Under the pieces are notes generated by a model. That model did no database searches and was not told the origin of the DNA. It saw nothing but the letters and a program-made list of their open reading frames with translations. Of a DNA stretch of 64,000 bases, positions 32,238-51,085 are shown piece after piece. Positions within the stretch are counted from its first letter, which is position 1. Each line of letters opens with the position of its first letter. The stretch is taken from the NCBI GenBank assembly GCA_003021085.1, contig PXRE01000026.1:199338-263337 (forward strand). Reading direction: 5' to 3'. This DNA comes from Halobacteriales archaeon QS_1_68_20. GTDB lineage: Archaea > Halobacteriota > Halobacteria > Halobacteriales > PXRE01. A program made the position numbers and the translations under genes.

Positions 32238-35200
32238 ATGGAGGTCATAGAACGACGTCCCGAAACGCTACAGCGGGACGATATCTGCAGGGGGACTACG
32301 CTCGTGCTCGGAGCCCCGTACGTCGGGAAATCCGAGCAGCTTTCCTCACTCGATGACGTTGACTACTACCGACGTGAGCTTCCTGCTCCCGACGAGACGG
32401 ACGGATCGCCCGTCGTGATCGATAACTTCTACCGGTTTTCCAGGGTGCGCGTGGAAATGCACCCGAATTACTCCGCGATCTATTCCGATCAGCGGACCGC
32501 GTGTCTCGTGACGCGACCGTGGTGCATCGACTGGTTGGTGACGGAACCGGACACAGGTCTCGATGAGGGATTCGTCGACCGCTTCGACCGGGTCGTTTTC
32601 GTCCGGTACGATCCGGAGGACGAGGATCACGAGACGTCGGCAGTCGAAACCTGCGCCGAACTGGCGGCGTGCGAGGAAGGCGAGGCCGAGGACTTGATCG
32701 AGGAACTCCGCTACGACGGTTACGACTTCCGGAGTGACGAACTGGCCGACGAGTGCGGGGAGTACGGAGCGACCTACGTGCCGCAGCTGGTGACGTACCT
32801 CTCCGACCGAATCGGTGAGGGCGGGAGCGTGATTGCCCCGGACGACGGGTGGGACGTGGGCGGCGGCATCAGAAATTGCGAGCGGGTTCACGATGTCCGG
32901 GGTCGTCAACAGCGCCAAAGAGACCGGTGCGGAACTCGTCGAAGCGGCCGGAATCGGCGGAGTCGCCGCAGCTGGGGGGCTGGGACCGGCCGGCGCTGCT
33001 GGTGCAACCGCGGCCTGGCTGGCCGGGTGGGCCTTGCTCCGGGACGACGACCAGGCTCCCGAGGAGATACTGAACGCGTTTGGCGAGGGCAGACTGCTCC
33101 CGACGACGAAAGAACACCTCGAACGGGGACTGGGCCTGCCCCCGCTGACTTTCGAAAACCTCGACGCGCTGGGACGGGAGGGCGTCCTCCAGCGACTCCG
33201 CGAGGTGGAACCCCGCCGGGTCGACGACCTCGAAACCGACATGGAGGCGGTACGACGAGGAGTTACGGGAGTTCGAAGGAGTCCTGGCAGAACTGGACGA
33301 GGCGGTCGAACCCATCGGGGACGTCGCGCCCGTTCTCTCAGCGAGCGTCGAGAACGCGACGCAGGGACTGGACCGGCTCGCGGCCAAGCTCCGGGACGAC
33401 GAAGCGGTGCTGCTCGGCGAGGATGTCGCGCTGGACGAAATCGAGTACCTCGGGGAGAAAGACGAGGAGGTCGAGCGAAAACTCGACGAAGCGAACGTCG
33501 TCTTCCTGACGGGGTCCCACGGGACCGGGAAGACGACGACGGCCTACCGCGTCTGTCAGCGGTTGGAAGCCCGCGGCTACGAGGTTCGTATCCCGACGTT
33601 CGGCAGGAACAAGGACGTCGATTACATAGAGCACGCCCTGAACACGACGGCCGGGCGGAACGTCGCGTACGCGAGTTACAACACCGATCCGGGGTCGTTC
33701 CACTCGCCGGAAGCACTCGAACATCTCTTCGAATGGGCTGATGACGGGACCGTCGAGATGGCGCTGGTCGAGATTCGCACGGAGCAGTTCGACCAGCTCA
33801 AGGCGCAACTGAATAACACTCGCGTCGGTGGGGGTTCACGGTCGAACCTGCTCAGTCGGTGTCCGAAAGTCGAATTCGACCGATGGAGCGACGGCGACCG
33901 ATCCCTGGTGGAGGTCATCGAATGGACGCTGGCGGCGATAGGGGCGGAGCTAGACGAGGACGTGATCGACGACGTCAGGGAGTGGGCCGATGGGAACCCG
34001 GAGATAGCGAAGCTCACCACCAGGATGATGGCCGAGGAGGACCTGACGATAGCGGATAAAGAGTCACCGATCCAAATCGTCTGGGAGGACGTTCGGTCGC
34101 TGGTCGGCGAGGACGAGGAAGTCAGGCATCTGGTCAGCGTCCTCAGCGCGACCGGGACGACGACGACGAGCGAACTCGCGGACGTTCTGGACTCTCCGGA
34201 ACCGAGTTTGTTCAAAAAGGCAAAACGGATTCGGGGGTACCTGGGCGCCGAGGTCCGTCGGGTCCTCGAAGGAGACGGGAAGTTCAACCCCGAGACCACC
34301 TGGACGATCTCGCCGAGTATCTACCGGCGTGCGATTTTCGAGTACGAAGCGCTAGGTCGCGGAGCGTCGGGACAAAGCCATACCACCGTCAAATCCACCG
34401 TCCAGAAGCTCGACTGGTTCGACCCCGACCACCGGTACGAGGGCGTCGCCAGGGCGCTCGGGGGCGCCTACGAGGACGGCGACCGGTGGGACGTCCCGGA
34501 CCTCAGGGAAACCGCACGGGAGCGGAGCAACTGGTTCCTGGAATTCGTCGACGACGCGGAGCCGGAACCGCTGATCGAGTCGATCCTATTCCTCGTCTTG
34601 GCCAGCGGCGTCCCCGTCGAAACGACGGTTCTCAAAGCGGAACGGGAGAAGGTCATCGAAGGGGCGCAAGCGTTCGCTGGAGAGTTAGAGATGGAAGCGG
34701 ATGCGGCGTTGTTGACGCAGGACCTGCTCGGCGCCCTGCTCGCCAACAACGTGCGAACCGGGGACAGTAGCGCGGCCAGCGTCAGTTTCGAGTACGCGAC
34801 GACGCCCCACGCCGATCCGGCGGAGTTTCTCGAAAACGTCTACAGCATGGCCGTCAAGAAGCTCGCCGCGGACTTCCATCCGGGGGACGAGCGGATCGAG
34901 GCCTGGGTCGACCGCATCGACCAACTAGCTCGGAATACTGCCACCAAAAGAGGGAAACTACCCGATGTCGACGGATTCCTCGGGAGCTACCGGGCATATA
35001 CCGCCGCGAGAGTCTCCGAGGACGACACTCCGACTCGACGTGGTCACTGGCACGAATACGTGATGGAGCGGGCAACGGCTGACTCGCCCGGCACCGTCCG
35101 CGAATTCTACCTCGCCTATCCGGACTGGCTCAAGCGGGGTCCACACGAAACGGTCGAATGGTGCCTTTGGCTCCTCTCGGACCTCCTGAACCGAACGGTC

Positions 35201-35467
35201 TACGCCGACGACCACCTCCTCGAATCGGACCAAGATGACGACGACCTGATCGTTGGGATCACTGCGACGGTCGTCTCCCTGGTCTGGCGTAAGGCGGGTC
35301 CACAGAGCGAATCGTTCGAGGCGGCCGTTTCGCTGCTGGAAGACGCACGCGGCGTCGACCGGGAACGAGCGGATCGACTCGCCGACGAAGTGGCCGAGAA
35401 GCTCGAAGCCGAACACGACGACTTCGTCGTCGCGCTCGACTGGCGGCGGGCGCTCGGACTGGATTGA
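32238..35467 (+). pseudogene. Large NTPase with two P-loops, broken by two frameshifts
   Basis: Three consecutive frames together encode one protein of about 1,075 residues. Part one (MEVIERRPETLQRDDICRGT) has Walker A GAPYVGKS and a Walker-B-like SPVVIDNF. Part two, in the next phase from about 32850, has AETGAELVEAAGIGGVAAAGG-like hydrophobic sequence and GLGLPPLTFENL. Part three, from about 33265 (YDEELREFEGVLAELDEAVE), has a second Walker A GSHGTGKTTT, a candidate Walker B EMALVEI, a winged-helix-like ELADVLDSPEPSLFKKAKRIR, then about 400 residues of helical repeats. Coding quality is good in all parts, so either two +1 frameshifts are real or the assembly has indels. The order sensor-like N-part, NTPase, helical repeats resembles STAND/AP-ATPases (inference). 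It is flanked by housekeeping genes. Confidence 0.65.
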
Positions 35468-36399: not shown

Positions 36400-36624
36400 A
36401 TGAGCGAGTACACCGAAGAGGAGCGGCGCATCCTCGCGTACCTGCGCGAGAGCGTGTCCCGAGGTGAGCGGTACTTCCGGGCGAAGAACATCGCCGAGTC
36501 CATCGGCCTCTCCTCGAAGCAGGTCGGCGTCCGCCTGCCGGAACTCGCCGACAAGAGCGAGGAGGTCGAGATCGAGAAATGGGGCCGGGCGAAGTCGACC
36601 ACCTGGAAGGTCACGCCTAGTTGA
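36400..36624 (+). CDS. Small winged helix-turn-helix protein (DUF7123-like)
   Basis: 74 residues: MSEYTEEERRILAYLRESVSRGERYFRAKNIAESIGLSSKQVGVRLPELADKSEEVEIEKWGRAKSTTWKV. This is a compact winged HTH with three helices and a wing ending WGRAKSTTWKV, as in the haloarchaeal DUF7123 group. It probably binds DNA or RNA; targets are unknown. TATA-like TCGTTAAGG lies about 30 bp upstream. Being so short it could act as a dimer. Confidence 0.75.
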   Translation: MSEYTEEERRILAYLRESVSRGERYFRAKNIAESIGLSSKQVGVRLPELADKSEEVEIEKWGRAKSTTWKVTPS

Positions 36625-50097: not shown

Positions 50098-51085
50098 CGG
50101 GTCTGGGGACAGACGAAGTCCGTGGGACGTACGGTTAGCATACCCGAGAACCCGGGGATCGAGGATCCGACCGTCGAGATCCTCGACGTGAAGGTCGACG
50201 GCGACGTGGCCGCACTGGCGAACGACGGCTCGGCGAATCCGGGGGTATCTCGCTGTACGACGTCAGCGATCCGGCGAACCCCACCAGCGCCGGTAGGTGG
50301 TTCCCGAAAGACGTCGCACCGGCGGAGGCGAAGGCGATCCGCGCCCCGTGTCACGACGTCTACGTCCAGGACGACGTCTGTTATGCGGCGCTGTGGGACG
50401 CCGGGACGGCCGCGCTGGACGTGAGCGATCCCACGGATCCGACCCTGATCTCCAGGTTCGGGTCGGTGCTCGACAAATCCGACGCCGTCCGGGGCTGGGA
50501 CGTCACGACCGGCTTCGGGGCCTACCTCGATCAGTACTGGGACATCTTCGAGTACCTCACGGCGCCAGGCAACGCCCACTACGTCCAGCCGTCGCCCGAC
50601 GGCGATCACGTCTACGTCGGCGCAGAGACCGTCCCCAAAGACGTCGGTGTCCCCGACCCCGGCGTGGACGATTACGGTGGTATCACCGTGTACGACACGT
50701 CCGACCTGGCGAACCCGACCGAGGTCACTCGCATCGACCCGCCGGTGATCGACGACGACACCGGGAAGCTGTTCACCTCACACAACTTCGACGTCTCGTC
50801 GAACCGGCTGTACACGTCCTGTACCACGGCGGCGTCCACGTCTACGACGTCACCGATCCCGCGAATCCGGTCCGGCGGGCCGGCCACGACCCGGACGGCT
50901 ACGCGTTCTGGACGGCCGTTCGCTCCCGGGCGTTCACGGTCGGCGGCGTCTACGGGAGCGAGTCCGACACCGCTGGCGGGATCACCGTCTTGCGCGACGA
51001 CCGGGGTGAGAAGCGCCCACCCGCCTTCGACGGAAGTGCCCCGCCGGACGACCCCGAGGTGATGCCCAGGGACGACCAGGAGTAG
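50080..51085 (+). pseudogene. LVIVD-repeat beta-propeller gene, 5'-truncated and frameshifted
   Basis: Joining three phases restores one protein: IEDPTVEILDVKVDGDVAALANDG, then ISLYDVSDPANPTSAGRW to DVSDPTDPTLISRFG and GGITVYDTSDLANPTEVTRID up to NRLYTS, then YHGGVHVYDVTDPANPVRRAGHDPDGYAFWTAVRSR. The repeated Y/L-D-V-S/T-D-P-A/T-N/D-P units are LVIVD propeller blades typical of haloarchaeal secreted proteins. Phase changes lie near 50243 and 50820. The signal peptide and first blades are missing upstream, so the gene is broken at its 5' end as well. Probably a former extracellular or surface protein. Confidence 0.75.

Follow-up and report, generated by a model that had tools for sequence, protein, structure and literature searches.

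A two-P-loop STAND-like NTPase of Halobacteria, a candidate switch in defence or conflict

Introduction

A gene of 3.2 kb in the genome of Halobacteriales archaeon QS_1_68_20 changes reading frame twice along its length. Does it encode one intact protein, and what could such a protein do? The initial annotation joined the three phases into a large uncharacterised NTPase and pointed to its resemblance to STAND ATPases, among them those of defence systems. To follow up this reading, we analysed the 64,000-nucleotide stretch that contains the gene (hereafter the window), together with homologous loci in other genomes. The gene belongs to an unnamed haloarchaeal family whose members combine two ATP-binding engines with a long helical sensor arm. 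We found no description of this family in the literature searched, a search whose reach mostly ended short of subscription journals.

Results

Three reading phases form one gene

The gene runs through phase 0 (32238-32852, 205 aa), phase 1 (32854-33249, 132 aa) and phase 2 (33251-35464, 738 aa), and ends with a stop codon at 35465-35467. The GC content by codon position switches phase near each of the two junctions. Joined as originally proposed, the three phases give exactly 1,075 residues (Table 1). This read-through was used for searches and alignments only; structures were modelled from unaltered pieces of the window and of homologous loci.

Table 1. Features of the gene in the window.
Feature	Position	Strand	Basis or remark
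Whole gene, three phases, read-through of 1,075 residues	32238..35467	+	Single-ORF homologues
N-terminal P-loop domain, residues 1-205, AAA+-like fold	32238..32852	+	AlphaFold2, Foldseek
Walker A of the N-domain, GAPYVGKS	32310..32333	+	
Walker B-like strand of the N-domain, VVIDNFY	32412..32432	+	Model strand 59-62
Sensor-1-like motif of the N-domain, CLVTRP	32502..32519	+	Model strand 88-92
First frame-change region, probably an assembly error	32840..32871	+	Codon-position GC, homologue alignment, frame model
Hydrophobic Gly/Ala-rich segment, borderline transmembrane	32935..33039	+	In most family members
LxLPPxT motif, between hydrophobic segment and coiled-coil-like stretch	33130..33150	+	Two invariant prolines
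Second frame-change region, probably an assembly error	33237..33262	+	Codon-position GC, homologue alignment, frame model
Second (STAND-like) NTPase domain	33458..34060	+	Pfam match, model, fold search
Walker A of the second NTPase, GSHGTGKTT	33512..33538	+	
Strand 3, NVAYASYN, without Walker B acid	33659..33682	+	Model, alignment
Strand 4, ALVEIR, with the conserved Glu of Clades A and C	33761..33778	+	
GNP motif, DGNPEIAK, GxP-like as in STAND ATPases	33989..34012	+	
wHTH-like part	34067..34309	+	Model secondary structure
Helical-repeat region, putative sensor	34388..35452	+	Model, fold search

A search with the protein across the order (394 genomes) gave matches in 12 genomes at E <= 1e-8, including the window's own. 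At 11 homologous loci, the family member is a single frame of 1,057-1,898 aa, about 23-33% identical to the window protein, and its alignment is unbroken across both junctions. Because these homologues in other Halobacteria are single ORFs through both junctions, the window gene is not a chance arrangement. Programmed frameshifting and a split into separate functional genes were both rejected, since the homologues stay in a single frame at both sites. At a twelfth locus (L042, G372 contig C39) the family member is broken; the translated stretch at the break (LIHISE...VYKRQ) resembles adapter sequence and may be sequencing contamination.

Using a profile of 12 core sequences, we detected the family in 32 of the 394 sampled Halobacteria. 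In a sample of the phylum (295 genomes), matches occurred in Halobacteriales genomes only, and the family is therefore confined to this order within that sample. The profile made from all 12 homologues was too diverse for a scan of contigs; a four-way alignment used in its place retrieved two named loci only. A viral origin was rejected: two peptide patterns matched none of the viral contigs that were scanned, and phages gave no match either. In the family tree, whose long branches leave the details unsure, the window protein groups with seven others in Clade A, 19 members form Clade B, and four members with a differing residue make-up form Clade C; one member, from genome G424, was not placed.

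One Halorussus homologue, WP_254270582.1 (NZ_CP100402.1, L047:10786-15942), bears the RefSeq name 'MSCRAMM family adhesin SdrC'. We rejected a role as surface adhesin, since the scanned family members contain no domain supporting it, and nothing pointed to a surface or transport function of the window protein. Neither of the two outcomes that the initial annotation had named as refuting its reading, homologues split at these sites or a known function of this kind, was thus observed.

Frame changes and the quality of the assembly

The initial annotation had raised the possibility of sequencing errors at the two junctions. We counted frame changes with a Viterbi frame model based on codon statistics and trained separately for each genome, on 458 kb of the host (G000 contigs C26 and C11, window included) and on 200 kb from each of two complete relatives. 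A change was counted only where the frame stayed open for more than 35 bases on each of its two sides, and the candidates come from the frame model alone. The host assembly displays 30 candidate frameshifts (6.5 per 100 kb), as against 1 (0.5 per 100 kb) and 0 (0.0) in the two control genomes. Both frame changes of the window gene are recovered by the model. This load of 6.5 per 100 kb against 0-0.5 in the relatives is strong, though indirect, evidence: the frame changes are best regarded as a property of the assembly, and the two in our gene are very probably assembly errors. The organism therefore most likely makes the intact protein.

A LVIVD-repeat-type gene of the window (50125-51085, + strand) also has two frame changes in the frame model, at about 50,227 and 50,814, likely with the same assembly cause. 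With so many spurious frame changes, any further split or shifted gene reported from this assembly calls for caution.

The copy could also be a decaying pseudogene, dead and with real frame changes. Two changes in one accessory gene, and truncated family members elsewhere (L092, L083), would fit such decay. We nevertheless consider it very unlikely, since frame changes are common across the host assembly and nearly absent from the two complete relatives, and the third part of the gene contains 738 codons without an internal stop.

An N-terminal P-loop domain followed by a hydrophobic segment

The N-terminal part has its own P-loop, as first noticed from the sequence. Its AlphaFold2 model (205 aa, alignment of 28 sequences) reached a pLDDT of 87.4 and a pTM of 0.85. 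In Foldseek its best PDB matches were AAA+ proteins, among them FtsH, MCM, CbbQ and spastin, with low TM-scores and a best E of 6e-4. A Walker A motif, a Walker B-like strand and a sensor-1-like strand follow one another in this order on an AAA+-like fold, and we predict the N-domain to be an AAA+-like P-loop domain.

A hydrophobic segment about 30 residues long, also noticed at the outset, comes after the N-domain in most members. Its best 21-residue hydropathy is 0.8-2.1, which is borderline for a transmembrane helix. After the LxLPPxT motif come a coiled-coil-like stretch and then the second NTPase.

A STAND-like NTPase with a helical arm

In the model of the second half (from 33254; pLDDT 80.8), an alpha/beta NTPase is followed by a wHTH-like part and then by helices over about 350 residues, in agreement with the wHTH-like part and helical region expected from the sequence. 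Its best PDB matches were EfAvs5 (E 2e-6), Avs4 in complex with a phage portal protein, Orc1/Cdc6, the AVAST5 filament and PABY2304; NOD2 ranked lower (E 6e-3). Avs proteins took ranks 1-3 and 5-6 of this fold search with low TM-scores; TM-scores of about 0.2-0.45, as found for the fold matches, indicate likeness at the superfamily level. The STAND-like domain order proposed initially is supported. For the half made up of NTPase and helices, the structures that match best are Avs proteins.

Several hallmarks of STAND proteins are present. The motif, the model and the fold search agree on a Walker A motif on a P-loop NTPase core, a GxP-like motif precedes wHTH-like helices, and the model places a helical region at the C terminus, where STAND proteins have their repeat sensor. 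Self-BLAST resolved no repeat units in that region. The Walker B acid is absent from its usual place on strand 3 in the 15 members inspected (NVAYASYN and its equivalents). In Clades A and C, the conserved Glu of strand 4 may stand in its place, with a putative Walker B role. The GNP motif is kept in most members of these two clades and was not aligned in Clade B. On these features, we consider the window protein best called STAND-like, and it probably works like a STAND protein. An internal duplication giving rise to the two NTPases was rejected, having no profile support past the P-loop (probability 5%).

The two P-loops vary separately across the family, and several members are without one or both of them. 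All eight Clade A members keep an intact second P-loop, and three of them (L034, L035, L091) have lost the first. The four Clade C members all have an intact first P-loop; in two of them the second is degenerate. Many Clade B members have a degenerate first P-loop, and their clade's second P-loop reads GPKxxGKR or is altered further. On this pattern, each engine seems to be partly independent of the other.

An accessory gene in a mobile family

The neighbours in the window are housekeeping genes, among which the gene stands alone, as the initial annotation had observed. In several relatives, the upstream PhoU-type gene lies close to the DUF7528 gene, the small gene found at 36400 in the window or the nitrilase-type gene, too close for a 3.2 kb gene to fit in between. 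Since these relatives have the flanking genes without it, the window gene is an accessory insertion at a conserved site. Its GC3 is 0.79-0.82, compared with about 0.9 for most genes of the window.

Plasmids carry family members in Halorussus aquaticus, Haloferax mediterranei and Natrinema species, among them WP_004061051.1 (Clade B) on pHME505 of Haloferax mediterranei and WP_138247147.1 (Clade C) on pNVE500 of Natrinema versiforme. In Halorussus aquaticus, a type I-B cas operon is located about 5 kb away from the family member. Tyrosine recombinases were found near some members, in one case 61 bp away (L043). Clade B members from different taxonomic families are up to 92.5% identical, compared with about 66-82% identity to the window's copy in most relatives for the core PhoU-type protein. 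This difference points to transfer of family members between taxonomic families. The distribution is patchy.

These observations also bear on a MalT-kind STAND regulator, which would sense a metabolite or protein and control gene expression with no part in defence. A wHTH-like part is indeed predicted, and the copies in the window and at L034 and L035 stand alone among housekeeping genes. However, like its counterparts in other STAND proteins, this part lies inside the chain instead of forming a DNA-binding domain at one end. The family is also patchily distributed and often found on plasmids, and the best fold matches are Avs proteins. We therefore regard such a regulator as unlikely.

Genes beside the family members

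We screened the family and its neighbours with PADLOC 2.0.0 (2023 copy). The profiles, those of Avs included, did not match the family past the P-loop. For 146 neighbouring proteins, the plainly defence-related ones among the PADLOC matches listed were one Cas3 and one DUF1156-type methyltransferase, a count made without a control set. The proposed likeness to defence STAND proteins holds for the fold, through the Avs matches, but not for sequence profiles past the P-loop, and defence genes lie beside few members.

As to linked accessory genes in other genomes, which the initial annotation had proposed to look for, a gene for a HEAT-repeat protein follows the family member, within 88-170 bp, at seven Clade B loci (L040:13307-15277, L077, L081, L082, L084, L086, L087), and its product may be a partner of Clade B members. 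Also beside Clade B members is a pair of small genes of 105 aa and, on the opposite strand, 85 aa, without a Pfam family (L044:6501-7088, L075, L076, L080, L088, L081, L090); the 105-aa gene is mostly directly downstream.

SUKH-1 and ankyrin-SUFU are families known as immunity proteins, and genes for both lie near the Clade B member at L077. Directly upstream of the Haloglomus member (Clade A) are a PAAR protein gene and a 142-aa gene (L045:7281-8554). The family might accordingly take part in cell-cell antagonism, as an immunity or recognition component tied to polymorphic toxins or to the contractile injection systems of haloarchaea. The PAAR gene, about 400 bp from the Haloglomus member, would fit, as would the L077 neighbours, and PAAR and the family co-occur above expectation (9 of 32 genomes, p = 0.0065, uncorrected for kinship). 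Type VI-like secretion systems with toxin-immunity pairs have been described in haloarchaea (PMC11566945). However, an adjacent PAAR gene was present at only one of the examined loci, of the nine genomes with both, eight have Clade B members (the other, G424, is the one unplaced in the tree) and none is a known Clade A genome, and the window genome has no PAAR. The link to injection systems is weak, and we judge this role to be improbable.

Discussion

We favour, with slightly better than even confidence, the reading that the gene product is a stand-alone signalling NTPase of the STAND type, equipped with an additional N-terminal AAA+-like P-loop domain and acting as a switch in defence or conflict, and that the frameshifts in the gene are assembly errors. 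For the role itself, a trigger-sensing switch in defence or conflict, our confidence is about evenly balanced; it is the most likely role in view of the architecture, the accessory nature and the fold matches.

In such a switch, the helical repeats would bind a trigger, for example a viral or other foreign protein, and binding would lead to nucleotide exchange at the second NTPase. The protein would then oligomerise through its NTPase and coiled-coil parts, gathering the N-terminal P-loop domains and hydrophobic segments, which would be the output, perhaps at the membrane. The window protein contains no recognisable effector enzyme, which counts against this reading, as do the missing acid on strand 3, the P-loop losses in several members, the low TM-scores, the absence of PADLOC matches past the P-loop and the small number of defence genes nearby. 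A more specific version, to which we give a low probability, is an immune switch particular to Halobacteria, with an AAA+-like NTPase output and a membrane-inserting segment gated by the sensor NTPase, either engine having been lost repeatedly.

Most of the known antiviral STAND proteins are bacterial. An unnamed and diverse family of STAND-like layout in haloarchaea would carry this theme into archaea and add a two-NTPase arrangement to it. Its members are annotated as 'hypothetical protein' or, wrongly, as adhesin, and some have culturable hosts, e.g. Haloferax mediterranei.

Among known systems, Avs/AVAST proteins (Avs4, Avs5) are the best structural matches in the PDB and share with the window protein a STAND-type NTPase ahead of a long helical sensor. 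The window protein differs from them in having no match to an Avs sequence profile (PADLOC 2.0.0) and no Walker B acid on strand 3. At the N-terminal effector position of Avs-type proteins, it has a second P-loop domain and then the borderline hydrophobic segment, instead of a nuclease, protease or SIR2 domain. Because the fold is similar but the sequence profile is unmatched, we did not file it as an Avs protein. With nSTAND3 (PF20720), the only Pfam family above its cut-off in the window protein (27.9 vs. 27.2 bits), the match spans only about 42 residues around the P-loop, and intact homologues fall below the cut-off. Archaeal ATPases of the Orc1/Cdc6 and PABY2304 types show no sequence similarity to the window protein past the P-loop; they share a related AAA+/STAND core with helices after it, whereas the window protein has a much longer helical part and a second P-loop domain. 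Finally, although its repeats are alpha-helical and not leucine-rich and it has no CARD, the window protein shares with NLR proteins such as NOD2 the layout of output, NTPase, wHTH and repeats.
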